Below the pieces are notes generated by a model, which made no database searches, had not been told where the DNA came from, and worked only from the letters and a program-made list of their open reading frames with translations. 64,000 nt of DNA, taken from NCBI RefSeq assembly GCF_009674665.1, contig NZ_WKJD01000016.1:372001-436000 (forward strand), given 5' to 3'. The position numbers and the translations under genes were made by a program. Shown here one piece after another: positions 5,970 through 47,573 of this stretch; the first letter of the stretch is position 1; each line of letters opens with the position of its first letter. Source of the DNA: Agromyces kandeliae (GTDB lineage: Bacteria; Actinomycetota; Actinomycetes; Actinomycetales; Microbacteriaceae).

Positions 5970-6044
5970 GCTTCCATGCTCGCGCCCCGGCCACCTCCCC
6001 GTCTCGGTCCGATTCGGCACCGGTGGCCTGCCCGCCCCGCCCCC

Positions 6045-6098
6045 GAGATGACGCGAACTGCTCGACGGTGGCGCCCGTCGAGCAGTTCGCGTCATCTC
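6045..6098. repeat. Perfect 24-bp stem hairpin
   Basis: Arms 6045-6068 and 6075-6098 are exact reverse complements, separated by a 6-nt loop. It lies between two minus-strand genes (downstream of the VOC gene, upstream of phzF-like). It could be a terminator for the VOC gene, but the stem is much longer than usual and no T-run follows. It resembles in form two other long hairpins in the window (33889-33953 and 60223-60281). Confidence 0.8.
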
Positions 6099-6549
6099 AC
6101 TCGCCGCCGTCGAGGGCCTGCTCGTCGCCGAATCGGCCGCGGGCGTCGACCGGGATGAGCGGCCGATCGGCGCGCGCCCGGATCTGCTGCACGGCCCAGG
6201 TGTTGCCGTCGGGGTCGGCGAACCCGAAGAACGTGCCGCCGTCGCGCGGGTCGATGACCTGGATCGGGCTCGCCTCGACGCCGCGGGCGACGAGTTCGGC
6301 ACGGGCCGCCTCGGCGTCGGCGACCACGAGCTGCACGCCCTTCAGCGAGCCCGGCGCCATCGCGTTCTGCGCCGGCAGCGTGCCGATCACGATCGAGCAG
6401 CCGGAGCCCGTCGGCGTGAGCTGCGCGAACCGGTGCTCGCCGGCGTGCGTGTCGTGGTCGAGCTCGAACCCGACCCGGTCGCGGTAGAACTCGATCGCAC
6501 GATCGATGTCGGCGACGGGGACGACGACGACCTCGAGGGTCCAGTCCAT
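6097..6549 (-). CDS. VOC family protein (glyoxalase/bleomycin-resistance fold)
   Basis: A 150-aa single VOC domain with the expected paired beta-alpha-beta-beta-beta pattern: VPVADIDRAIEFYRD at the start and FADPDGNTWAVQQI at about residue 115. Family members bind divalent metal and act in glutathione or mycothiol conjugation, dioxygenation or resistance by sequestration. GAGGAG lies 7 nt before the ATG. It follows the ArsR-SRPBCC pair on the same strand with a gap of 45 nt, so it probably belongs to the same transcription unit. Confidence 0.9.
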   Translation of the reverse strand: MDWTLEVVVVPVADIDRAIEFYRDRVGFELDHDTHAGEHRFAQLTPTGSGCSIVIGTLPAQNAMAPGSLKGVQLVVADAEAARAELVARGVEASPIQVIDPRDGGTFFGFADPDGNTWAVQQIRARADRPLIPVDARGRFGDEQALDGGE

Positions 6550-34102: not shown

Positions 34103-36418
34103 GTGAAGCAACGCACGCGCGGATGGCTCGCTGTGACCGCAGCGAGCGCGACGATGGTCGCCGGAGCCGCCTTCGGACCGGCCGCGATCGCCGCCCCCGC
34201 GACCGATTCCCCTACCGACTCGACCGCAGCCGCCGAGGCGCGACCCGACAACCGCCCCGGCCCGCTGACCCAACGACAGGACGAGCGCCGCAAGGCGGCG
34301 CAGGAGCTGATCCTGTCCGGCCAGGCGGCGCCCGGCGACGACGGCGTCGTCCAGCTTGCGGAAGACAAGTACTACCAGGCAGCCGTCAGCGGCTCGGGTC
34401 GCCTGTTCACGATCCTCGCCGAGTTCGGCGACCAGGGCAGCGGCAAGCTCGGCACGACGCCCGGCCCGCTGCACAACGAGATCGCCGAGCCCGACCGCAC
34501 GGTCAACAACAGCACGCACTGGCGCGCCGACTTCGACACCGCCTACTACGAGGACCTCTTCTTCGGCCCTGAGGACTCCATGGCCGACTTCTACTCGAAG
34601 CAGTCCTCGGGGAACTACACCGTCGAGGGCGAGGTGAGCGACTGGGTGCAGGTGCCCGGCAACGCCTCGACCTACGGCGACAACAGCGTCGAGGACGACG
34701 GCGGCGCGTGGCAGTTCATCGCCGACTCCGCCGACGCGTGGTACGCCTCCCGCATCGCCGACGGCGCGACCCCCGACGAGGTCGAGGCCGAGCTCGCCTC
34801 GTTCGACGTCTGGGACCGCTACGACTTCGACGACGACGGGAACTTCGACGAGCCCGACGGCTACCTCGACCACTTCCAGGCCGTGCACGCCGGCGAGGGC
34901 GAGGACGCGGGCGGCGGCGCCCAGGGCGACGACGCGATCTGGTCGCACCGCTGGTACGTCAACTCGACCGACTTCGGCCAGACCGGTCCGATGGTCGGCG
35001 ACACGCAGGTGAAGTTCGGCGGTACCCGGATCGGCGACTCCGGCATCTGGATCGGCGACTACACGGTCGAGCCCGAGAACGGCGGCCTCGGCGTCTTCGC
35101 GCACGAGTACGCCCACGACCTCGGCCTGCCCGACTTCTACGACACCGCGGGCGGCGAGAACTCGACGTCGTTCTGGACCCTCATGTCCAGCGGCTCGTGG
35201 CTCGGCGAGGGCGGCGACGACATCGGCACCACGCCGAACTACATGGGTCCGTGGGAGAAGCTCCAGCTCGGCTGGCTCGACTACGCGGTCGTCGACCAGG
35301 GCGCCGGCGACGCGGGCGAGTTCACGCTCAGCCCCGCGGCCCGCCAGGTCGCCGACCAGGAGCAGGCGCTCGTCATCGACGTCCCCGACGCGGGCATCAC
35401 GAGCGAGTACACCGCACCGAACTCCGGTTCGCACGCCTGGTGGACCGGCAGCGCCGACGACCTCAACACGACGCTGACGCGCACGCTCGACCTGGCCGGC
35501 GTGCGCTCGGCCACCGTGACGGCCAAGGCCTGGTACGACATCGAGGCCGGCTACGACTACCTCTACGCGGAGTACTCGGTCGACGGCGGCGCGAACTGGA
35601 CCCAGGTCGGCAGGCCCCTCGACGGCTCGTCGAACGGTCGTTGGTCGAACCTCCGGTACAGCGTGCCCGGCGGCAGCGAGGTGCAGTTCCGGTTCCGGTA
35701 CCAGACCGACGGCGGCGTGCACTACGCCGGCGCGTTCCTCGACGACATCGTGATCAAGAGCGGCGGCACCACGCTGCTCACCGACGACGTCGAGTCCGGC
35801 GAGAACGGCTGGACCGCCGCGGGCGACGGCTTCACGATCAGCACCGGCACCGAGACGAGCGAGGGCGACCGCTACTACCTCGTCGAGAACCGCACGTACG
35901 TCGACTACGACGCCACGCTCGAGCACGGCCCGTACCAGTTCGACAAGGGCCTCACGGCGCCCGACCACGTCGAGCACTTCCCGTTCCAGGACGGCATGCT
36001 CGTGTGGGCGATCGACGAGGCGTACGGCGACAACAACACCATCGAGCACCAGGGGCACGGCCTCGCGCTCCCGGTGGACGCGAACCCGGTCAAGTTCGCC
36101 TACGAGGACGGCACCGGGCCGAGCAACCGGCGCCAGCCGTTCGACGCCACCTTCGGCCTGCAGGCGATCGACGCGGTCACCCTGCACAAGGAGGTCCTCG
36201 TCGGCAAGGGCAGGAGCCAGTCGGTCGACTACATCGGCGCGGTGGGCTCCGACGGGACGACGCAGCAGACGGCCACCTTCACGGACGCCGACGCGAACGC
36301 GTTCTTCCACTCGTCGAACCCGCTCGGCGGCGTGATCGTCGCCGGGCACGGCGTCGAGGTCACCGTGACCTCGCAGGTCACGGGCGGCACGATGACGATC
36401 CACGTCGTCAACCCGTGA
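34103..36418 (+). CDS. Secreted immune inhibitor A-type M6 metalloprotease
   Basis: A 771-aa exported protease. A Sec signal peptide covers residues 1 to about 30 (Lys/Arg start, hydrophobic core, cleavage near IAAPA). The zinc motif is HEYAHDLGLPD at 334-344 (HExxHxxGxxD), with the downstream Met-turn SFWTLMSSGSW. The C-terminal 400 residues form beta-rich domains as in Bacillus InhA, including a MAM/jelly-roll-like part (about 480-560). No LPXTG or membrane anchor is present, so it should be released. AAGGAGAG precedes the GTG. It degrades extracellular proteins; the target is unknown. Confidence 0.94.
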   Translation: MKQRTRGWLAVTAASATMVAGAAFGPAAIAAPATDSPTDSTAAAEARPDNRPGPLTQRQDERRKAAQELILSGQAAPGDDGVVQLAEDKYYQAAVSGSGRLFTILAEFGDQGSGKLGTTPGPLHNEIAEPDRTVNNSTHWRADFDTAYYEDLFFGPEDSMADFYSKQSSGNYTVEGEVSDWVQVPGNASTYGDNSVEDDGGAWQFIADSADAWYASRIADGATPDEVEAELASFDVWDRYDFDDDGNFDEPDGYLDHFQAVHAGEGEDAGGGAQGDDAIWSHRWYVNSTDFGQTGPMVGDTQVKFGGTRIGDSGIWIGDYTVEPENGGLGVFAHEYAHDLGLPDFYDTAGGENSTSFWTLMSSGSWLGEGGDDIGTTPNYMGPWEKLQLGWLDYAVVDQGAGDAGEFTLSPAARQVADQEQALVIDVPDAGITSEYTAPNSGSHAWWTGSADDLNTTLTRTLDLAGVRSATVTAKAWYDIEAGYDYLYAEYSVDGGANWTQVGRPLDGSSNGRWSNLRYSVPGGSEVQFRFRYQTDGGVHYAGAFLDDIVIKSGGTTLLTDDVESGENGWTAAGDGFTISTGTETSEGDRYYLVENRTYVDYDATLEHGPYQFDKGLTAPDHVEHFPFQDGMLVWAIDEAYGDNNTIEHQGHGLALPVDANPVKFAYEDGTGPSNRRQPFDATFGLQAIDAVTLHKEVLVGKGRSQSVDYIGAVGSDGTTQQTATFTDADANAFFHSSNPLGGVIVAGHGVEVTVTSQVTGGTMTIHVVNP

Positions 36419-37919: not shown

Positions 37920-37937
37920 GCCTGAGGTACCTCAGGC
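37920..37937. repeat. 18-bp perfect palindrome over the sulfatase stop codon
   Basis: GCCTGAGGTACCTCAGGC is exactly self-complementary and covers the last codon and stop of the second sulfatase gene. It might contribute to transcription termination of the six-gene operon or be a protein site; it could also be chance. Confidence 0.5.
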
Positions 37938-39398
37938 GCTCGCTCGCACCACCGGACCGGCGGGCTCCACGAGGCCGGCAGGCCGCGGCTGGCTCGGGTG
38001 CGGAGCATCCCCCAGCCGCGACTGCTCGAGCCACATCGCCCGCTCGAGCTCTTCGCGGACCTCGCGGTAGGCCGGGTCGTTGGCGACGTTCCGCAGTTCC
38101 TCGGGGTCGCGCTCGAGGTCGTAGAGCTCCCACTCCGGCGGGTAGGTGAACGGCCCGGTGCCGGGCAGGCCGAGCCCGTCGTTGTAGTAGTAGATGAGCT
38201 TGTAGCGGTGCGTTCGGTAGCCGTAGTGGGCCGGCGCCTTGTGGAACGCGTCGTCGTGCTCCCAGTACCGGTAGTACATGCCGTCCGCCGGCGGCGACAG
38301 GGGCGACCCGACGAGGTCGGGCCAGAAGCTGCGACCCTGCATGCGCGGATGGGCGGGCACCCCCGCGGCATCCAGCAGCGACTGCGCGAAGTCGACGTTC
38401 GTGACGATGCCGTCGAAGACGCGGTCGCCCTCGAGCGCGCGCGGGTAGCTGAGCAGCATCGGCATGCGCAACGACTCCTCGTACATGAACCGCTTGTCGA
38501 ACCAGCCGTGCTCGCCGAGGAAGAAGCCCTGGTCGGAGGCGTACATGAGCAGGGTGTCGTCGAACTCGCCGCGCGCGCGCAGCCGGTCGATGACCCGGCC
38601 CACGTTGTCGTCGACGGATGCCACGCACGCGAGGTAGTCCTCCATGAAGCGCTGGTACTTCCACAGCGCGAGCTCCTCGTAGCCGAGCCCCTCGGGCGGC
38701 GAGACCTTGAGGTCCTCCTCGTTCAGGTTCTCGGCGAGGCGCATGAGCGCCCGCCTGGTCGACGACGACCGGGTGTCGTAGTCGTCCCAGAACGTCGACG
38801 GCACGGGGACCGCATCGCGGAACCGCTCGAGGTCCTCGGGCTTCGGCTCCCACGGCCGGTGCGGCGCCTTGTGGTAGATCAGCACGCACCACGGGTCGTC
38901 GCCCTCGAGGGAGTCGAGCCAGTCGAACGCGAGGTCGGTGATCCGGTCGGTCGCGTAGCCCTCGACGATGCGCTCGCCCTCGGCCGACAGGAACAGCGGG
39001 TCCCAGTACTCCCCCTGTCCGTCGTGGCCGACGAGGATGTCCCAGTAGTCGAAGCCCTCGGGCGTCGAGCCCGCGTGTTCGCCCATGTGCCACTTGCCGA
39101 TCATCGCGGTACGGTAGCCGGCGGCCTTCAGCTGCGAGACGAACGTCGGCTGGCTCGCGTCGATCGGCGTGACGAGCGTCGAGACCCCGTTGACGTGGCT
39201 GTACGTGCCCGTCAGGATGGACGCCCGGCTCGGCGAGCACAGCGCGTTCGTCGCGAAGCAGTGGTCGAAGCGCCATCCGTTCGCCGCGATCTCGTCGATG
39301 CGCGGCGTCGCGTTGAGCACCGAGCCGTACGCGCCGATGGCCTGCGATCCGTGGTCGTCGGTGAGGATCATGACGATGTTCGGGCGGCGGGCGGTCAT
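37932..39398 (-). CDS. Cytoplasmic type I sulfatase (second of pair)
   Basis: A 488-aa sulfatase of the alkaline-phosphatase superfamily. The formylglycine precursor is Cys54 in LCSPSRASILTG (CxPSR), and the metal ligands begin with Asp14-Asp15 in ILTDDH and continue with YASDQGFFLGEHGW (about residue 310). The C-terminal block ELYDLERDPEELRNVAND is typical of the family. No signal peptide is present, so it acts in the cytoplasm on imported sulfate esters. The ATG shares one base with the TGA of the first sulfatase (TGATG), so the two are coupled. Formylglycine maturation needs an enzyme not found in this window. Confidence 0.94.
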   Translation of the reverse strand: MTARRPNIVMILTDDHGSQAIGAYGSVLNATPRIDEIAANGWRFDHCFATNALCSPSRASILTGTYSHVNGVSTLVTPIDASQPTFVSQLKAAGYRTAMIGKWHMGEHAGSTPEGFDYWDILVGHDGQGEYWDPLFLSAEGERIVEGYATDRITDLAFDWLDSLEGDDPWCVLIYHKAPHRPWEPKPEDLERFRDAVPVPSTFWDDYDTRSSSTRRALMRLAENLNEEDLKVSPPEGLGYEELALWKYQRFMEDYLACVASVDDNVGRVIDRLRARGEFDDTLLMYASDQGFFLGEHGWFDKRFMYEESLRMPMLLSYPRALEGDRVFDGIVTNVDFAQSLLDAAGVPAHPRMQGRSFWPDLVGSPLSPPADGMYYRYWEHDDAFHKAPAHYGYRTHRYKLIYYYNDGLGLPGTGPFTYPPEWELYDLERDPEELRNVANDPAYREVREELERAMWLEQSRLGDAPHPSQPRPAGLVEPAGPVVRASA

Positions 39399-40969
39399 CA
39401 GGCGGACCGCCGTTCGGGGTCGGCCACGGGCACGGGGGCGACGGATGCCACGGGCGCCGCGGCATCCGCTCGCTCGACGGCCTGGTACGTCGTCTCGTCG
39501 AGGCCCGACTGGGTCGGGTCGTAGTCGACCTCGCCGACGTCGTACATCGTCGTCATCCAGTGGTAGAAGTTGTCGCCACGGTCGCGCAGCAGCCCGTAGA
39601 GGCGCTGCATCATCGTGTTCCGGACCTCCCGCATCTCGGGGTGCTCGTAGACGTTGAGGAGCTCGTCGGGGTCCCGTTCGAGGTCGTACAGCTCGTTCAC
39701 CGAGTCGGGGTTCACGACCAGCTTGTACCGGTCGTTGCGGAGCATCCGCTGCGGGTACGGGAAGTGGTGACCGTGGAACTCGCAGACGATGTCGTCGGCC
39801 CACTCCGGCTGCTCGCCGGCGGCGAGCGGCACCAGGCTGCGGGAGTCGACCGCGGGGGACGGGTCCAGCCCTGCGAGTTCGAGGATCGTCGCCGTGCAGT
39901 CGAGCAGGCTCACGAACTCGGAGCGGACCTGACCGGCCGGACCGCCGGGGATCCGCAGCAGGCCGGGCGTGCGGTAGATGTCCTCGTACATCGCCGGCCC
40001 CTTGTCGTGCAGCCGGTGCGCGCCCGTGAACTCGCCGTGGTCGCACGTGAAGAAGACGGCCGTGTCGTCGACGAGCCCGAGGCGCTCGAGCGCGGCCATG
40101 ACCCGCCCGATCTGCTGGTCGATCAGGGCGACGTAACCCCAGTAGACCGCGATGAGCTTGCGCGTCACCTCGATCGGCATGGTGTCGAAGGTCCAGTGCG
40201 CGCTGTAGTTGCGCTGCACCGGCGGCTTGCCCTCGAAGGTCTCGGCGATCGACTTGGGCAGCTCGATGTCGGCCGGGTCGAACATGTCGAAGTACTCGTT
40301 CGGCACGATGTACGGCAGGTGCGGCCCGAAGAAGTTCAGCTCGAGGAAGAACGGGGTGCCGACGCGGTCGGCGTCGGCGGCGTACCGCTCGAGCAGTTCG
40401 ATCGTGCGCGTCGCGAGGTAGTACTCGAAGGTGGCCTCCACCGGCTGGTGGAGCCGGGCAGCCAGCAGGTTGCCCGGCCCACCGTTCGGCAGGGTGCCGC
40501 GGATGCGATCGCTGATCGCGTACGGCGGCAGGTCGTGCTCGGCCAGGTAGCCGAGGTAGTCCTCGTTCTCCACGGGGTTGTGCCATCCGGGAAGGTCGGG
40601 GCCGTCGAAGCCGAAGTCGGCGGCGTCCTTCTCGGTGCCGGCGTGCCACTTGCCGACGAGTCCCGTGTTGTAGCCCTTCTCGCGCAGCGCCTCCACGAAG
40701 GTGAAGCTGCCCTCGGCGAGGTCCTCCAGGTAGCCCACGTTCCGCTCGTGGTTGGCGAGCACGCGGTGGCGGAAGGGGGCCTGGCCGGTCAGCAGGCTCG
40801 CGCGGGCCGGCGTGCAGATCGCGGTCGGCGTGTACCAGCGGTCGAAGCGCGTGCCCGTGCGGGCCAGCTCGTCGAGCACCGGCGTCGCGGCCATCGCGTT
40901 GCCGTACGCCCCGAGCGTGTCCGCCCGGTGCTGGTCGGTCATGAGGAAGAGGATGTTGCTCGGCTTCAT
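39398..40969 (-). CDS. Cytoplasmic type I sulfatase (first of pair)
   Basis: A 523-aa sulfatase. The active-site sequence is Cys52 in AICTPARASLLTG (CxPAR), with Asp12 and Gln13 at the first metal site (LMTDQHR) and FTCDHGEFTGAHRLHDKG at about residue 310. It is diverged from its neighbour, so the two probably act on different positions or esters. There is no signal peptide. It starts 7 nt after the substrate-binding protein stop and continues directly into the second sulfatase. The Ala/Pro/Val-rich last 30 residues are not part of the core fold. Confidence 0.94.
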   Translation of the reverse strand: MKPSNILFLMTDQHRADTLGAYGNAMAATPVLDELARTGTRFDRWYTPTAICTPARASLLTGQAPFRHRVLANHERNVGYLEDLAEGSFTFVEALREKGYNTGLVGKWHAGTEKDAADFGFDGPDLPGWHNPVENEDYLGYLAEHDLPPYAISDRIRGTLPNGGPGNLLAARLHQPVEATFEYYLATRTIELLERYAADADRVGTPFFLELNFFGPHLPYIVPNEYFDMFDPADIELPKSIAETFEGKPPVQRNYSAHWTFDTMPIEVTRKLIAVYWGYVALIDQQIGRVMAALERLGLVDDTAVFFTCDHGEFTGAHRLHDKGPAMYEDIYRTPGLLRIPGGPAGQVRSEFVSLLDCTATILELAGLDPSPAVDSRSLVPLAAGEQPEWADDIVCEFHGHHFPYPQRMLRNDRYKLVVNPDSVNELYDLERDPDELLNVYEHPEMREVRNTMMQRLYGLLRDRGDNFYHWMTTMYDVGEVDYDPTQSGLDETTYQAVERADAAAPVASVAPVPVADPERRSA

Positions 40970-40976
40970 GGCTGGA

Positions 40977-41999
40977 CTACTCGCCTGCCTGGAGGAACAG
41001 GTCGCCGGTGTAGAACGACGACGGCTCCGCGACCTCGGTCAGCTTGCCCGCTGCGACGAAGTAGTCCTGCATGCCGTTCAGCCACGAGTCGACCGTGCCG
41101 TCCTCGGTGAGGGTGTCGAGCTCCTCGAGCGAGAGCACCTTGTTGTTCGCGGCGTCTGCGGCGACGGCCTCGGCGTCGAGCGCGTTGTAGGCGGCGGTCA
41201 GCTCGACGGCCTCGTCGGGGTTCTCGTAGCGGAACGTGATCGCGTCGCGCAGTGCCTTCAGCACCCGGTCGACTTTCTCGGGCTCGTTCTCGACGACGTC
41301 GTTGCCGGCCACGAACGCGGTCGGGAAGGCGACGGTCTCCTCGAAGTCGGAGTTCTGCGCGATCTCGACGAGGTCGGGCACCTGCTCCTTCACGGTCGCG
41401 AGGGCCGGGTACCAGAAGCCGGCGCCCTGGACCTGGCCGGACGCCAGCGCCGACACGATCGCCGACGGCTCCATGGGCACGAGCTCGATGTCGTCCTTGG
41501 TCATCCCGGCGTCCTCGAGGGCGAGCGTCAGGATCATGTCGCCCGAGGTGCCCTCGGGGACCGCGACGGTCTTGCCGCGGAGGTCCTCCATCGAGTCGTT
41601 GCCCGGCTGGCCGACGACGCGGTCGGACTGGCCGAGGGTGTTCATCGCGATGATCTGCGCCTCGCCGCTCGCCGGCAGCCAGAAGGCGCCCGGGCCGATG
41701 TAGCCGAAGTCGAGGTCGCCCGTGCCGAGCGCCTGGATCTGCAGTGGGCCGTTGGTGAACGACGGGGTCTCGACGTCGAGCCCGTACTTCGCCCAGTACC
41801 CCTGGTCCTCGGCGATGGCGAGCAGGCTGGTGCCGTTGAAGTCGGGGATGTACCCGAAGTTCACCTCGATGACGTCGTCGTACTCGCTCTGCGCGGCGGC
41901 CGAGTCGCTCGATCCGCCGTCCGAGGCGCATCCGGTCGCGAGGAGGGCGACGGCGGCGCCGACGGCGGCCGTGCCGAGGAGCTTCCTGGAAAATCGCAT
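40977..41999 (-). CDS. SsuA/NMT1-type substrate-binding lipoprotein
   Basis: A 340-aa lipoprotein with the lipobox LLATGC (Cys24), so it is anchored outside the membrane. The mature part matches the SsuA/TauA/ThiY group: NFGYIPDFNGTSLLAIAEDQGYW at the start has the pattern of that fold, then GTGDLDFGYIGPGAFW and LRGKTVAVPEGTSGDMIL. This group binds sulfonates, nitrate or thiamine precursors. Next to two sulfatases, a sulfated or sulfonated compound is the likely ligand. It lies 67 nt downstream of the ATPase gene, inside the operon. Confidence 0.93.
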   Translation of the reverse strand: MRFSRKLLGTAAVGAAVALLATGCASDGGSSDSAAAQSEYDDVIEVNFGYIPDFNGTSLLAIAEDQGYWAKYGLDVETPSFTNGPLQIQALGTGDLDFGYIGPGAFWLPASGEAQIIAMNTLGQSDRVVGQPGNDSMEDLRGKTVAVPEGTSGDMILTLALEDAGMTKDDIELVPMEPSAIVSALASGQVQGAGFWYPALATVKEQVPDLVEIAQNSDFEETVAFPTAFVAGNDVVENEPEKVDRVLKALRDAITFRYENPDEAVELTAAYNALDAEAVAADAANNKVLSLEELDTLTEDGTVDSWLNGMQDYFVAAGKLTEVAEPSSFYTGDLFLQAGE

Positions 42000-42066
42000 G
42001 GCTGTGCTTCCCTTCAGTGGGTGTGGGGGTGATTCCGGTGCTGGATGGGTGGGGGCGGGCGCCGCG

Positions 42067-42885
42067 TCAGTGCGACGTGGCCCCGGCGGCGACGCCGGGT
42101 TCCTGGTGGTACACCGCGTGCCAGACGCGGTTGCGCAGTTCCCCGAACTCGGGGCTCAGGCGCACGTCCTCCGTGCGGGGGTACGGGAGGTCCACGTCGA
42201 TGACGTCGTAGATCCGGCCGGGCCGGGCGGCCATGACGACCACCCGGTTGGCGAGGAACACGGCCTCGTCGACGTCGTGCGTGATGAACATGACCGTCCG
42301 CTTCTCGCGGCTCCACGTGTCGAGCAGCTGCTCCTGCAGCTTCACGCGCGTGAGGGCGTCGAGTGCGCCGAACGGCTCGTCCATCAGCAGGATCGAGGGA
42401 TTGACGGCGTAGGCGCGGGCGATGGCGCACCGCTGCTTCATGCCGCCGGAGAGCATCTTGGGCAGGGCGTCGGCGAACTGCTGGAGTCCGACCATCTCGA
42501 TGAAGTGCTCGGCCCGTTCGCGGCGCTGCGCCTTCGGCACGCCGTTCACCTTGAGCCCGAACTCGACGTTCTTCCGCACGGACAGCCACGGGAAGAGCGC
42601 GTACTGCTGGAAGATCACCCCGCGCTCCGGACCGGGCCCCGACACGGCTCGCCCGTCGACGAGCGCCTCTCCCGAAGTGGGCGTCTCGAGCCCGGCGAGC
42701 ACGTTCATCAGGGTGGACTTGCCGCATCCGGACGGCCCCACGACGGTGACGAACTCGTTGTCGGCGATGTCGATCGAGACGCGATCGAGGGCGGTGAACT
42801 CCTCGCCCTTGAGCGGGAAGGTCTTCGTGACCTCGCGGACGGAGATCTTCGCGTCGGTGGCCGTCGCGGGGTTCGTGGTGGTCAT
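42067..42885 (-). CDS. ABC importer ATPase (SsuB/TauB/NrtD-type)
   Basis: A 272-aa ATPase. Walker A is GPSGCGKS (50-57), the Q-loop is [12 protein letters not shown], the signature LSGGMKQR is at about 147, and Walker B is [15 protein letters not shown]. The FPWLSV and FGALD blocks are typical of the sulfonate/taurine/nitrate subgroup. I chose the ATG at 42885, which overlaps the permease stop (ATGA) and has AGGAA about 6 nt upstream; an ATG at 42900 would add five residues. Confidence 0.94.
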
Positions 42886-43781
42886 CGTCGTTCCTGCCAT
42901 CCGGTCAGCTTGGTTTCGGCGAAGAGGAGCAGGCGGTCCATGACCAGGCCGAGGATGCCGATCAGGACGATGCCCACGAAGATGGTCGCCAGGTCGTAGT
43001 AGATCTGCGCCTCCTGCATCCGGCGCCCGAGGCCGGCCTGCGCGGCCAGCAGCTCGGCGGCCACGAGCGTGGCCCACGCGGAGCCGAGGCCGACGCGCAT
43101 GCCCACGAGGATGAACGGCGTCGACGCCGGGACGACGACGCGGGCGAAGATCGTGCCGTCCTTCGCGCCGAGGACGCGCGCCGCGTTGATCAGCGTCCTG
43201 TCGACGCTCACGACGCCTTGGTACGTCGAGATCACGCAGGCGAGGAACGCGGCGAGGAAGATGACGACGATCTTCGGGATCTCGCCGATGCCGAGCAGCA
43301 CGAGCACGAGCGGCAGCAGCGCGAGCGGCGGGATGGTGCGGAAGAACTGGATCCACGGCTCGAACAGCCCGCGGGCCACGGTGTACCAGCCCATCAGGAA
43401 GCCGACCGGGATGGCTGCGGCCGAGCCGAGCAGGAAGCCGGCGAGCACGCGGCCGAGACTCGCGAGGATGTCCTCCTGCAGGATGCCCGCGTTCCACAGC
43501 TGGACCGCCTTCTCGACCACCTCGGGCGGGGTCGGCAGCTGGAAGCCGTTCAGGGCGAGGAGCCACCAGATCGCGATGCCGCCGATGATCGAGACGGCGT
43601 TCAGGATCAGGAGCTTGGTGCGCGTGCCCATCCCGCCAGAGCGGCGTCGGCGCGGGCGGCCGCCGTCGTCGTCGACCGCGGTGATGGCGCTCGTGCGCAT
43701 GCCGTCGACCACGACCGCGGTGTCCTCGGTGCCGGTGACCGGCTGTTGCGATTGCTGTTCCATCGTGCTCATCCGCGCCAT
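42882..43781 (-). CDS. ABC importer permease (SsuC/TauC-type)
   Basis: A 299-aa permease with six helices after a hydrophilic N-terminal stretch of about 60 residues. The cytoplasmic coupling loop has the importer EAA motif [19 protein letters not shown] (about residue 245). It belongs to the binding-protein-dependent group serving sulfonates, nitrate and taurine. The start at 43781 has GAGG 7 nt upstream; two nearer ATGs (43772 and 43763) are possible. It lies 31 nt downstream of the ROK gene and overlaps the ATPase gene. Confidence 0.92.
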
Positions 43782-43812
43782 GGCGCGACCTCGTCTCGTG
43801 TGGGGGTGGCGT

Positions 43813-45045
43813 TCACCGTGCGCTCCTTTGCTGCTGAACGGGTTCGGCGGATGCCCCGGCGTCGGGGTACCCGGCGAGGAGTGGGGACTGGTGGAAGATC
43901 GCGGCGATCGCGCCGAGGGCGCCATCGCTGTCGCGGAGCTGGGCCGCGCGCACGATGTGCGGCTGGTCCGAGGGGATCGAGTACAGCTCGTAGCGGAGCG
44001 TCGCGGCGGCCTGCTCGACGAGTACGGGCGCGATGCGGACGATCTCGCCGCCGATCACGACCTCACGCGGGTTGAGGGTCATCGCCGCCGCCCCGAGCAC
44101 ACGGCCGACCGTCGATCCGACCTCGCGGAGGACCGCGTCGACGGCGGGGTCGCCCTTGGCGACGGCCGCGGCGAGGTCGGCGAGGTTCTCGACGTCGGCA
44201 CCGGCCTCGCTGCAGGCTCGGAGGATGGCGGGGACCGAGGCGATGGTCTCGAGGCATCCGCGCTTGCCGCACCGGCACGCCGCGCCCGAGGGGTTCGCCG
44301 TCACGTGGCCGAGCTCGCCGGCGAAGCCGCGCGACCCGGTGACGAGTCGGCCCGACACGACGAGCCCACCGCCGACGCCGTCGGACAGGCGCAGGTAGAT
44401 GAGGTTGTCGACCGCGTCGGGGCGGCTGATCGCCTCGGCGAGCGCGGCGAGCCGGGTGTTGTTGTCGACCACGACCGGGGCGCCGAAGCGCTCGGCGAAG
44501 GCCCGGTCGACGCCGTCGGGTGCGAGCTGGTTCTTCCAGCTGACGGCGGGCGTGCCGGCGCGGGCGCCCGTGTAGGGACCGGGGACGCCGATGCCGATCG
44601 ACTGCAGCGCACCGAAGTGCACGCCGGTGTCGCGGCTCAGCCGGTCGATGAGGTCGAACGCGATCTCGAGCCGCTCGGCCCAGGGCGGGTCGTCGTCGTA
44701 GCGCTCCACGCCCTGCGCGATGATCTCGTGCGACGCGTCGGCGACCGCGACGTGCACGCGGCGGTGCCCGAAGTCGACGCCGAGGAACTGGCCCGAGTCG
44801 GGGTCGAGGGCGAGTCGCTCGGCGGGGCGGCCGCTGCCGGCGCGGGTCGCGGCATCCGTGTCGGCGACGATGATCGCGCCCCGTTGGAGGAGGTTCGCGG
44901 TGATCTCGGAGAGCGTCGTGCGGCTGAGGCCCACGCGCTTGGCGAGCTCGCCGCGGCTGAGTGCGCCGTGGGCCCTGAGGGCCGCCAGCACCCGCTCCTC
45001 GTGGGTCCGCCTCACGAGGGCGTGGACTCCGGTCGTCGTCGACAT
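43813..45045 (-). CDS. ROK family transcriptional regulator
   Basis: A 410-aa NagC/XylR-type regulator. Residues about 10-70 form a MarR-like helix-turn-helix ([20 protein letters not shown]), and the rest is a ROK sugar-kinase fold with the sugar-binding GELGH and the zinc motif [10 protein letters not shown] at about residues 277-288. The fold suggests a sugar or sugar-phosphate ligand. It is the first gene of the importer-sulfatase operon and divergent from the GH43-like gene. The start at 45045 lies 7 nt after a -10-like GAGTGT whose -35 TTGACG carries the operator, so the gene is probably leaderless. Confidence 0.94.
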
Positions 45046-45052
45046 GCCAGCA

Positions 45053-45081
45053 ACACTCTCAACGCCGAATTTTTCCGTCAA
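45053..45081 (-). promoter_or_regulatory. Promoter of the ROK-importer-sulfatase operon
   Basis: On the minus strand TTGACG (45081-45076) is followed after 17 nt by GAGTGT (45058-45053), which ends 7 nt before the ATG. The -35 lies inside the operator arm 45069-45082. The -10 is weak, so an activator or derepression is plausible. Confidence 0.6.
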
Positions 45082-45082
45082 C
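45069..45082. promoter_or_regulatory. ROK operator arm 1
   Basis: ATTTTTCCGTCAAC, exactly the reverse complement of the second arm at 45166-45179. Each arm overlaps the -35 box of one divergent promoter, the expected position for a ROK repressor site. Confidence 0.75.
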
Positions 45083-45165
45083 AGCCCGACAGAAAAACTT
45101 CTCGGATCTGTCAGAGCACCGTCAGAAACGGACGATCGGCTCCCGGACGTTCTTTCCGACGGTCC

Positions 45166-45179
45166 GTTGACGGAAAAAT
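45166..45179. promoter_or_regulatory. ROK operator arm 2
   Basis: GTTGACGGAAAAAT, the exact reverse complement of the arm at 45069-45082; the arms lie 83 bp apart. Degenerate partial copies lie between them (for example around 45121-45130 and 45151-45162), so cooperative binding or looping is possible. Confidence 0.75.
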
Positions 45180-45195
45180 CCCGCCTCCGTAGCGT
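45167..45195 (+). promoter_or_regulatory. Promoter of the GH43-like gene
   Basis: TTGACG (45167-45172), a 17-nt spacer and TAGCGT (45190-45195) form a near-consensus housekeeping promoter. The -35 lies within operator arm 2. Transcription would start near 45202, leaving a leader of about 70 nt with GGGAG just before the ATG. Confidence 0.75.
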
Positions 45196-45271
45196 CCCTC
45201 AGCACGGGTCGGCCCTACGGCCCGACGGGCCGTCGCCCACGATGCGCCCATGTCTCAACGAGGGAGATTCG

Positions 45272-46606
45272 ATGATGAACAACTCCGAGATCGGAGCGCG
45301 CCTGGGACGACGGGCGTTCCTGGCCGGGGTCACCGGCGCGGTCGCAGCGGCGACCCTGCCGATGACCGCAGCACAGGCGACTCCAGCGGCGAACGCGTCG
45401 GGCGACGCCTTCCCGTCGAACTGGCCGGATCCGGAGCCCTACGGCATCGCCGACACGCGAGTGGACCTCTGGCTGCGGGAGGACAACTCGTTCATCCTGC
45501 CGCTCGAGCACCGCCCACGAGACCCGGCGAACCGACATGTCTGGATGCGCGACACGTACGTCAACTGCTTCGTGGTCGACGGCAGGCCGTTGTACGTCGC
45601 GACCGGCACGACGCGCGTGCCCGGACTCGATCGAGCGGCACCGTGGAATGACGGCATCTTCGTGTGGACGGCCCCGTCGCTTCGCGGACCGTGGCGACTG
45701 GCCGACACGACCGCCATCCGGCCCGGCGCCGAGCGTGGCAAGGTATGGTCGCCCGAGTTCGTCGACGAGAACCGCCCAGGGCGCACGGTCGTCGCCCCGT
45801 GGCAGGAGTACTGGTACGACGCACGGTTCGGCAAGCGGGGCCAGGTCTGGGCGCCGGAGCTCCACTACTTCAAGGACACCTGGTACATCGTCGCGTGCAT
45901 GGGCGATCACTCGCAGAAGGTCGGCTCATTCATGCTCGTGAGCGAGGGCGGCATCGAAGGCCCGTACCGCGTGGTCGAGGGCAACCTCGAGAAGCCGTTC
46001 GGCGACCCCTTCGTCGGCGGGCCGGCGTTCATCGCGCCCGGCGCGTACCACCACATCGACGGCAGCATGTACACCGAGGGCGACGATGCGTGGCTCGTGC
46101 TGCACAACGACGAGTATGCGAAGTTCCGCGATGACATGGAGGACATCGTCCCCTCGACCGGCCTCTCGGAGTTCCAGCAGACGCCCTACTCGCCCGAGCC
46201 GTACCTCGAGGGCGCCTACGTGTTCAAATACGGCGGGAAGTACTACCTCATGCACGCCGCATGGGACCGCACGTCCGTCGCGGCGGACGGCAGCGCCCGG
46301 TATGCGTACGACCCGCCGGCGCCGGGGAGAACCCAGTACCAGTACGACGCCGTCGTCGCCGTGGCGGATTCGTTCGAGGGCCCCTACTCAGCTCGGTGGA
46401 ACGCAGGGGTCGGGGCCGGACACAACAACCTCTTCACGGACCACGGCGGCAAGCCCTGGGCGACCTTCTTCCGCAACCCGAACGCGGGATACTGGTCTGA
46501 TCCGTCACGGATCGACGATTCGGCCGTCCCCGGCGTGGTGCGGATGGAGTGGACGGGACCCGAAGGGAACCGCCTCTACGTGCAGCGCCGGCCCGGCCAG
46601 GACTGA
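45272..46606 (+). CDS. Tat-exported GH43-like glycoside hydrolase
   Basis: A 444-aa secreted enzyme. A twin-arginine signal lies at residues 11-35 (GRRAFLAG, cleavage near AQATPA). The rest looks like a five-bladed beta-propeller glycosidase of the GH43/GH117 type. Candidate catalytic acids are the Asp in RDTYV (about 94), the Glu in WAPELHY (about 196) and Glu313 in YLEGAYVFKYGGKYYLM, all in the family positions. The substrate is unknown; the sulfatase-ROK-importer operon opposite suggests a sulfated glycan or glycoside. An in-frame ATG one codon later (45275) is also possible. Confidence 0.85.
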   Translation: MMNNSEIGARLGRRAFLAGVTGAVAAATLPMTAAQATPAANASGDAFPSNWPDPEPYGIADTRVDLWLREDNSFILPLEHRPRDPANRHVWMRDTYVNCFVVDGRPLYVATGTTRVPGLDRAAPWNDGIFVWTAPSLRGPWRLADTTAIRPGAERGKVWSPEFVDENRPGRTVVAPWQEYWYDARFGKRGQVWAPELHYFKDTWYIVACMGDHSQKVGSFMLVSEGGIEGPYRVVEGNLEKPFGDPFVGGPAFIAPGAYHHIDGSMYTEGDDAWLVLHNDEYAKFRDDMEDIVPSTGLSEFQQTPYSPEPYLEGAYVFKYGGKYYLMHAAWDRTSVAADGSARYAYDPPAPGRTQYQYDAVVAVADSFEGPYSARWNAGVGAGHNNLFTDHGGKPWATFFRNPNAGYWSDPSRIDDSAVPGVVRMEWTGPEGNRLYVQRRPGQD

Positions 46607-46665: not shown

Positions 46666-46683
46666 CTCTGACTAGAGTCAGAG
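46666..46683. promoter_or_regulatory. MarR-type operator and promoter at the MarR-GNAT start
   Basis: CTCTGAC-TAGA-GTCAGAG is a perfect 7-bp dyad ending 2 nt before the ATG. The TAGAGT box (46673-46678) inside it ends 7 nt before the start codon, so the operator covers the -10 of a leaderless promoter and should allow autorepression. Confidence 0.75.
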
Positions 46684-46685
46684 AT

Positions 46686-47573
46686 ATGGACGACATCGCC
46701 AGGGTGCGGCAGTTCAACCGCACGGTCACCGAGCGGATCGGCGCGCTCGACGACGGGTACCTCTCGCGCGGCCGGCCGCTCGGCCAGTCGCGACTGCTGT
46801 GGGAGATCGGCGCCGCGGGCGACCGCGGTGCCCAGCTCCGCGATCTGCGCGAGCGGCTCGAGCTCGACAGCGGGTACCTCAGCCGGCAGCTCCGCGCGCT
46901 CGAGGCCGACGACCTCGTGCGCGTCGAGGCCTCCCCCGGCGACTCGCGGGTCCGCGTCGCGCGGCTCACGCCCGCCGGAGTCGCCGAGCGCGCCGAGCTC
47001 GACCGGTCGTCCGACGCGCTCGTCGGCGGCATCCTCGACCCGCTCACCGAGCGGCAGCGCGAACGGCTGCTCGCCGCGATGGACGAGGTCGGCCGTCTCA
47101 TGACCGCCTCGGCCGTCGAGGTCCGGTGCGTCGACCCGGCCGATCCGTCGGCCCGCACGAGCGTCGCCGCGTACTTCGCCGAGCTCGCCTCGCGCTTCGA
47201 CATCGGCTTCGACCCGGCGCGCACTCGGCCCACGCCCGACGACGAGTTCCGCGAGCCGAACGGCACGTTCCTCGTCGCGTTCCTGCACGGCGAGCCGGTC
47301 GGCTGCGTGGGCCTCAAGCTGCACGGCGACGAACCCGCGGAGGTCAAGCGGCTCTGGGTCGCGTCGAGCACGCGCGGTCTCGGCTTGGGGGCGCGGCTGC
47401 TTCGCGAAGTCGAGGCAGCGGCGGTCGCGCTCGGGGTGGGCGTCGTCCGGCTCGACACGAACCGCACCCTCACCGAGGCGATCGCGATGTACCGCTCGCA
47501 CGGCTACGTCGAGATCCCCGACTTCAACGGCGAGCCGTACGCGGACTTCTGGTTCGAGAAGCGCCTCGGGTAG
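46686..47573 (+). CDS. MarR-GNAT fusion protein
   Basis: A 295-aa fusion. Residues 1 to about 140 are a MarR winged helix (RLLWEIGAAGDRGAQLRDLRERLELDSGYLSRQLRALEADDLV carries the recognition helix). Residues about 150-295 are a GNAT acetyltransferase with motif A VKRLWVASSTRGLGLGARLL (acetyl-CoA site) and the end MYRSHGYVEIPDFNGEP. Such fusions are a known family in which a regulator senses or modifies a small molecule. The dyad just upstream suggests autoregulation. The acetyl acceptor is unknown. Confidence 0.93.
   Translation: MDDIARVRQFNRTVTERIGALDDGYLSRGRPLGQSRLLWEIGAAGDRGAQLRDLRERLELDSGYLSRQLRALEADDLVRVEASPGDSRVRVARLTPAGVAERAELDRSSDALVGGILDPLTERQRERLLAAMDEVGRLMTASAVEVRCVDPADPSARTSVAAYFAELASRFDIGFDPARTRPTPDDEFREPNGTFLVAFLHGEPVGCVGLKLHGDEPAEVKRLWVASSTRGLGLGARLLREVEAAAVALGVGVVRLDTNRTLTEAIAMYRSHGYVEIPDFNGEPYADFWFEKRLG

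Follow-up and report, generated by a model that had tools for sequence, protein, structure and literature searches.

What would bring together, in one compact locus, two sulfatases that lack signal peptides, an importer of the sulfonate type, a regulator of the ROK family and an exported glycosidase? The locus in question lies within a 64,000-nucleotide (nt) stretch of DNA from Agromyces kandeliae, referred to here as the window, from a genome of 3.78 Mb that is close to that of Agromyces binzhouensis (the sulfatase S1 of the latter is 98% identical). A preliminary description of the window had six genes on the minus strand, for the ROK regulator, an ATP-binding cassette (ABC) permease and ATPase, a substrate-binding protein (SBP) and the sulfatases S1 and S2, facing a divergent gene for a GH43-like enzyme (GH43b) with a twin-arginine (Tat) type signal, and our coordinates and family assignments agreed with that layout (Table 1). 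The answer that we consider likely, based on sequence comparisons, is that these genes form a ROK-controlled pathway for the release, import and desulfation of a small sulfated sugar.

In such a pathway, an exported GH43-type enzyme (GH43b here, and elsewhere a second type, GH43a, or a fusion of the two) would act outside the cell to cleave a glycan or glycoside that carries sulfate, and an SsuA/TauA-type SBP would bind the resulting sulfated mono- or oligosaccharide through the sulfate group. The permease and ATPase would then import it, and that the sulfated sugar enters intact and is desulfated only inside the cell is, in our estimation, probable. In the cytoplasm, S1, after its activation by a formylglycine-generating enzyme (FGE), would remove the sulfate, with S2 in some species removing a sulfate at a second position, and the freed sugar would pass to central metabolism and the sulfate to sulfur assimilation. 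The ROK protein would act as repressor of its own operon and of the exported enzyme alike, through matching operators that cover the -35 region of each, and a sugar that is present once the pathway is active would release it. The repression, its effector, the order of the reactions and the class of substrate are parts of the scheme that we infer.

The genes on the minus strand are closely packed: ROK and the permease are separated by a 49-nt gap, the permease and ATPase overlap by 4 nt, gaps of 67 nt and 7 nt precede the SBP and S1, respectively, and S1 and S2 overlap by 1 nt (TGATG). On the plus strand, GH43b is divergent from ROK and starts 229 nt away. The family-level identities were backed by both Pfam and NCBIfam, with the exception of the GH43-like protein, which was without any NCBIfam match.

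Table 1. Genes, promoter and operator-like sites of the locus, in positions of the window
Feature	Position	Strand	Evidence and remarks
S2, formylglycine-type sulfatase (CSPSR), without signal peptide	37932..39398	-	PF00884 174 bits, SGSH_C 155 bits
S1, formylglycine-type sulfatase (CTPAR), without signal peptide	39398..40969	-	PF00884 170 bits
SBP, SsuA family	40977..41999	-	TIGR01728 206.2 bits, cut-off 163.5
ABC ATPase, SaoA/NtrCD/TauB type	42067..42885	-	PF00005 115 bits
ABC permease (BPD_transp_1), Tau/Ssu/nitrate type	42882..43763	-	PF00528 93 bits; start uncertain, 43781 possible
ROK regulator	43813..45045	-	Pfam ROK 176 bits, HTH_24 28.8 bits
Operator-like dyad overlapping the ROK promoter (TTTCTGTCGGGCTGTTGACGGAAA)	45064..45100	-	matrix score 59.4
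Further copy of the dyad, overlapping the GH43 promoter (TTTCCGACGGTCCGTTGACGGAAA)	45148..45184	+	matrix score 32.2
Inferred GH43 promoter (TTGACG, 17 nt, TAGCGT), overlapping the dyad	45167..45195	+	sequence reading
GH43-like glycosidase (GH43b), Tat-type signal	45275..46606	+	PF04616 62.3 bits, cut-off 32.2; start 45272 possible

Conservation of the operon and its operator-like dyad

Relatives of the locus were sought in a scan with one genome per species, and of the 506 candidates, ranked by their similarity to S1, the 80 best were analysed (loci designated L), a gene being counted as present if it gave a tblastn match of more than 45% identity in the fetched stretch, some stretches being shortened by contig ends. 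The 80 loci span 30 named genera of Actinomycetota, as counted from their titles, and in 76 of them, from 29 genera, a ROK gene heads the operon and is followed in unbroken order by the genes of the permease, the ATPase, the SBP and S1 (all but L046, L059, L067 and L091). The gene order, whose conservation in relatives had been set as a test by the preliminary description, is thus conserved. Around this core the content varied, with S2 in 28 loci, an FGE-type gene in 42, GH43b in 46 and GH43a in 22, and in the commonest arrangement (21 loci, 20 from Streptomyces and one from Kitasatospora) GH43b is divergent from ROK and an FGE gene replaces S2. Among the 57 loci in which all five core proteins could be read, S1 was the most conserved, with a median pairwise identity of 83% (68% for the SBP and 65% for ROK), and the distance matrices of the five proteins agreed with one another (pairwise r 0.72 to 0.86).

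Read in translation, the ROK protein of the window has a winged helix-turn-helix (HTH) and a ROK domain, and keeps the ROK motifs CxCGxxGCxE and GELGH. A role as a sugar kinase was ruled out by the N-terminal HTH and by an Asn (DNNTR) at the position that we presume, from the motif and an alignment by eye, to be that of the usual catalytic Asp.

Upstream of ROK, nearly every one of the 80 loci has the same element. For an operator matrix, the stretch upstream of ROK that matched best was taken at 74 sites, the starting set being the 78 loci with a ROK match, from which L049 and L053 (diverged sites), L050 (masked Ns) and L057 (a longer distance to the match) were dropped; both sites of the window and all GH43 sites were kept out of its building. 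The matrix amounts to 46.6 bits, and its best centre is a 24-bp dyad, TTTCYGTC-N8-GACGGAAA. Across the 64 kb of the window it found only two places, one over the ROK promoter and the other over that of GH43b, the next scores (1.9 and -8.4) being reverse readings of both, and in 100 Markov-simulated windows no score exceeded -1.4. The score of the ROK site is not independent, because the matrix includes the site of a near relative, A. binzhouensis (L038). When the whole genome was searched with a pattern devised to cover the two sites, up to three mismatches being allowed, only these sites of the window matched, and the backward control matched nowhere.

The same dyad was then scored in the 400 nt upstream of each gene in the relatives, with a threshold of at least 5. 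It was present upstream of 22 of the 41 unfused GH43b genes and 15 of the 22 GH43a genes, and of none of the 564 other genes of the same loci. No dyad was found upstream of the SBP, permease or ATPase genes (0/76 each), the FGE genes (0/42) or S2 (0/28), and S1 was preceded by one in a single locus of the 80 (L046, which is without the genes before S1). That there was none at FGE or S2 would be expected if transcription reads through to them from the ROK promoter.

At GH43b, a bound protein would block the promoter, because the dyad holds the TTGACG hexamer and TAGCGT follows 17 nt on. One dyad at two promoters suggests joint control of the import operon and the exported enzyme as one regulon, rather than separate regulation of the GH43-like gene, the latter being an outcome that the preliminary description had named as telling against its reading. 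That the seven genes make up one regulon and one pathway is a conclusion in which we have high confidence, and from its position the ROK protein would be the one to bind the dyad. A two-arm operator at a promoter is also a feature of the RokB and CsnR regulons of Streptomyces, where the RokB site on PnovH (TTTGTTC-N11-GAACAAA) is of similar size, whereas the sequence of the arms and the target genes differ from those of the locus dyad (PMC4856308, in the part available). The string SCO75 does not occur in the main text of that paper.

The spacing of the operator is itself regular, in that the end of the matrix lies 17 to 19 nt from the ROK match for 61 of 77 ROK-labelled sites, and in the window the likely -10 of ROK ends about 7 nt before the ATG (45046-45063). 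The fixed distance, together with a -10 so near the ATG, suggests a leaderless ROK transcript from a promoter of fixed position. L104 and L106 (about 5980-6250) have two operator copies upstream of ROK, not one.

The sulfatases and the importer

Both sulfatases match PF00884 with an E value of about 1e-50, and, as the preliminary description had it, neither has a signal peptide: each starts directly at the catalytic fold (NILFLMTDQH in S1, NIVMILTDDH in S2) with no leader before it. The distance from the SBP stop to the start of the S1 match is at most 60 nt in 68 of 76 relatives and 62 to 80 nt in the other eight, and the spacing between S1 and S2 is at most 60 nt in 27 of 28, the single exception falling within the same 62 to 80 nt. 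With so little room before either gene, leaderless sulfatases look general among these loci, and S1 and S2 are predicted to be cytoplasmic. Alignments A1, A2 and A3 comprised 39/47, 48/76 and 35/67 usable locus sequences, near-duplicates having been thinned by hand. The S1 residues D12, Q13, C52, R56, K107, H109, H217, D310, H311 and K323, which correspond to the usual metal-binding and catalytic positions, were identical in all 36 aligned sequences.

The best match of S1 in the Protein Data Bank (PDB) was 6pt4, an exo-2S-iota-carrageenan sulfatase (178 bits), and S1 is too distant from this iota-carrageenan exo-2-O-sulfatase to fix its specificity. S2, in which the CSPSR motif is accompanied by a Pfam match over the cut-off, is related to exo-6-O-sulfatases, and its best PDB match was 5g2v, an N-acetylglucosamine-6-sulfatase that we take to be BT4656 (398 bits). 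BT4656 is a member of family S1_11 that acts on O6-sulfated monosaccharides (PMC9067506, in the part available). For the activation of such enzymes, the window's genome has an FGE-type gene elsewhere (G000:C20, 279 bits), and in the relatives that have one at the locus it usually comes next after S1 or S2, with short gaps in many. If the pathway is as proposed, the operon also provides a likely natural setting for well-studied formylglycine-generating enzymes of actinobacteria. One of these genes, which follows S1 in a Streptomyces locus (L068, 11561-12526), matches the solved FGE 2q17/6muj with 620 bits, 2q17 presumably being the S. coelicolor enzyme.

Of the importer, which the preliminary description had assigned to the sulfonate/nitrate type, the SBP is of the sulfonate type. 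Among the matches listed it was the sole importer part over a specific NCBIfam cut-off (SsuA_fam), and it scored below the thresholds of the more specific models for SsuA (PRK11553) and TauA. The permease had SaoP and TauC as its best NCBIfam models, both below their cut-offs, and the ATPase matched SaoA with 261 bits, below a cut-off of 360; they are generic parts of the Tau/Ssu/nitrate type. The SBP is probably a lipoprotein, judging from its lipobox-like ATGC, and its model (mean predicted local distance difference test score, pLDDT, 88.8) had TauA (6ssy) as best fold match. It is in these two respects, the SsuA_fam score and the fold nearest TauA, that the locus is like the SsuABC and TauABC importers, and it differs from them in having no sulfonate oxygenase among its seven genes.

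In the ats/sft system of Pseudomonas import precedes desulfation, as in the pathway proposed here. The atsACBR-sftR-atsK-sftP cluster of Pseudomonas UW4 has a sulfatase gene beside the genes of an SsuABC-type importer, i.e., ATPase, permease and an aliphatic-sulfonate-type SBP, so the novelty that the preliminary description had given the locus was overstated; the cluster has a LysR-type regulator (SftR; PMC3596284, in the part available), whereas the locus has ROK and a dyad shared with GH43. In P. aeruginosa the arylsulfatase gene atsA responds to sulfur starvation (PMC12581299, in the part available). The locus differs further in that its sulfatases are of the carbohydrate type, not the AtsA type, and in having FGE in the operon in relatives. 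With the same core of sulfatase and importer in both, the locus could be one for sulfur scavenging, in which aryl or alkyl sulfate esters are imported under sulfur limitation and the GH43 enzyme merely feeds carbon, and S1 does match the NCBIfam arylsulfatase model PRK13759 (239 bits, below its cut-off of 481). We judge this unlikely, given that the linked regulator is ROK, not LysR/CysB, that exported glycosidases share its dyad, and that genes for the galactose enzymes GalT and GalK lie downstream in Actinomadura. In addition, the arylsulfatase 1hdh, which we take to be that of P. aeruginosa, gave 64 bits against S1 and 111 against S2, compared with 178 and 398 for the carbohydrate sulfatases.

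Known loci for sulfated glycans usually export their sulfatases, as do those of Bacteroidota, which use SusC/SusD for uptake. The locus is like the polysaccharide utilization loci of that phylum in that, among solved structures, S2 is nearest 5g2v, and differs in its leaderless sulfatases and sulfonate-type ABC importer; a Pfam scan of ten proteins, from the locus and the genes flanking it, showed neither SusC nor SusD. The precedent nevertheless speaks for S1 and S2 acting outside, after a leaderless or piggy-back export with which their sequences are compatible, the importer then handling free sulfonates or some other ligand. Such an arrangement is very unlikely in view of the missing leaders, the little room for them in relatives (68/76 and 27/28) and the tight coupling of S1 to its neighbours (the SBP and S2 in the window, the SBP and FGE in L048). 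A shade less probable again is the hydrolysis by S1 and S2 of other esters of the alkaline phosphatase superfamily, namely phosphonate or phosphate monoesters, with a substrate that is not sulfated: phosphonate monoester hydrolases do match S1 (4upk with 119 bits and 2w8s with 108 bits), but sulfatases rank first for both enzymes (178 and 398 bits) and the SBP is of the sulfonate family.

Import of a sulfated sugar and its desulfation inside the cell also have a reported counterpart in Bifidobacterium breve UCC2003, the ats clusters of which are said (Egan et al. 2016) to have a ROK-type regulator, an intracellular glycosulfatase and import of GlcNAc-6-sulfate, together, reportedly, with a different transporter, an anaerobic maturase instead of FGE, and no exported GH43. 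This reported ROK-controlled glycosulfatase cluster lowers the novelty of the locus further. The core of importer and sulfatase is already known in kind from the Pseudomonas ats cluster, and it is the combination with ROK and an exported GH43 enzyme that appears new. The exact combination of genes was not found among the papers listed by a limited full-text search of the literature, and the available parts of PMC3920027 and PMC5066984 contain nothing on the locus.

Exported enzymes, substrate and distribution

GH43b has a twin-arginine leader (LGRRAFLAG), and its model (pLDDT 77.1, with residues 1-60 poor) is a five-bladed propeller with 3qz4 as best match in VIA-align (Z 24.8, root-mean-square deviation 3.4 A over 280 residues, 18% identity). 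The candidate catalytic residues D93, D262 and E312, by motif the putative base, pKa-modulating residue and acid, were identical in all 40 aligned sequences. The 50 fold matches listed include arabinofuranosidases, xylosidases and exo-galactanases (Z 24.8 to 22.1), and the modelled fold is one that points to no preferred sugar or GH43 subfamily. GH43a, represented by the copy in L111, is closest to endo-1,5-alpha-L-arabinanases (1uv4, 94 bits), and scores 117 bits against the AbnA model, below its cut-off of 480.

In seven of the 80 loci GH43a and GH43b are joined in one frame beside ROK, and the two types can also take each other's place. A. binzhouensis (L038 = G700:C246) has six operon proteins that are 94 to 99% identical to those of the window, the upper value being that of the ATPase over its best stretch and the core otherwise falling at 94 to 98%, and its slot between the operon and a 93% identical MarR-GNAT gene holds GH43a; at E <= 1e-10, no GH43b was found in its genome. 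The window's genome has GH43b, and elsewhere in it GH43a gave only a weak match (33%, E 7.5e-12). It follows that one front end was swapped for the other at this position and the core was kept. A wider proposal, on which we are evenly divided, is that actinobacteria privatize sulfated glycans, in that sulfate would be kept on the sugar until inside, where it would become a sulfur source and the sugar a source of carbon; until then it would be a handle for a sulfonate-type importer turned importer of sulfated sugars, and GH43a, GH43b or both would be exchangeable front ends on a constant core. If this is true, a clade of SsuA/TauA-type proteins carries sulfated sugars, some actinobacterial "sulfonate" importers need a new annotation, and a path is defined by which sulfated glycans supply both sulfur and carbon. 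In two loci (L078:6794-9570 and L102:437-3188), GH43b is followed by another sulfatase that is only 31% identical to S1, which makes one more case of GH43b paired with a sulfatase.

As to the sugar, the genes downstream of S1 in Actinomadura offer a hint. In L048, L060 and L066 the line continues S1-FGE-GalT, to which L066 adds GalK, and in Actinomadura darangshiensis (L048) the SBP, S1, FGE and GalT genes overlap successively by 4 nt. The GalT of L048 and L066 and the GalK of L066 were over the cut-offs of TIGR00209 and TIGR00131, and the GalT of L060 was named by its similarity to that of L048. These Leloir genes point to galactose. Taken with the gene of alpha-L-arabinofuranosidase type that follows S1 in Kribbella turkmenica (L067), they suggest, with low confidence, a galactose- or arabinose-type sulfate, an assignment that we hold as tentative and rather doubtful.

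Several observations weigh against the proposed pathway. GalT was present in just 3 of the 80 loci and GalK in one, and in L067 the arabinofuranosidase-type gene stands in their stead; the contig of the latter holds 3 kb before S1, without an importer gene there. The fetched stretches of 20 of the 80 loci had neither GH43a nor GH43b, and 19 of the 41 unfused GH43b genes and 7 of the 22 GH43a genes scored below 5 for the dyad, with Kribbella and Phycicoccus having weak look-alikes only. Among the low-scoring sites, those of Streptomyces GH43b genes are a recognizable variant of the dyad (TTCGTCCG..TGTTGACGTAAAT), and L054, one of the seven GH43a loci, has a site just beyond 400 nt. The 80 loci, being the best of 506 by S1 similarity, favour conserved contexts. 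The system is also rare: S1 was found at E <= 1e-60 in 13 of 299 genomes of the family and at E <= 1e-150 in one of 396 genomes across the phylum, which is the window's own, and GH43b at E <= 1e-30 in 6 of the 299, the window's genome being included in each count.

Transfer of the system between lineages is likely, being suggested by its patchy occurrence and by S1 proteins whose median identity is 83% over a wide range of genera. This speaks for a reading in which the system is a hitch-hiking cluster spread in this way, its GH43 enzyme and importer serving different substrates. Such a reading is the least probable of the alternatives, since the exported enzymes are tied to the operon by the dyad that they share with it, by the loci in which GH43a and GH43b are fused next to the operon, and by the exchange of the two in one slot. 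Neighbouring clusters resembling LacI regulators and sugar permeases (in 14, 11 and 10 loci, and named by eye) were set aside as background, having no fixed place or strand.

Flanking genes

On its GH43 side the locus is flanked by a MarR-GNAT fusion gene (window 46680-47573), which is also present in A. binzhouensis. Of 31 genomes of the genus, the window's own included, 14 have a match to the flanking DUF389 gene and 13 have one to the MarR-GNAT gene. In the three genomes with both on one contig (G690, G693 and G702) the two lie more than 600 kb apart, so these offered no empty insertion site for comparison. The third PF00884 match of the window's genome, designated L001 (G000:C12:26553-27791), lies in an open frame of 1182 amino acids, much longer than is usual for a sulfatase. 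Upstream of the locus, at 34103-36418 of the window, is a gene for an M6 metalloprotease of the immune inhibitor A type with MAM and VEG domains.

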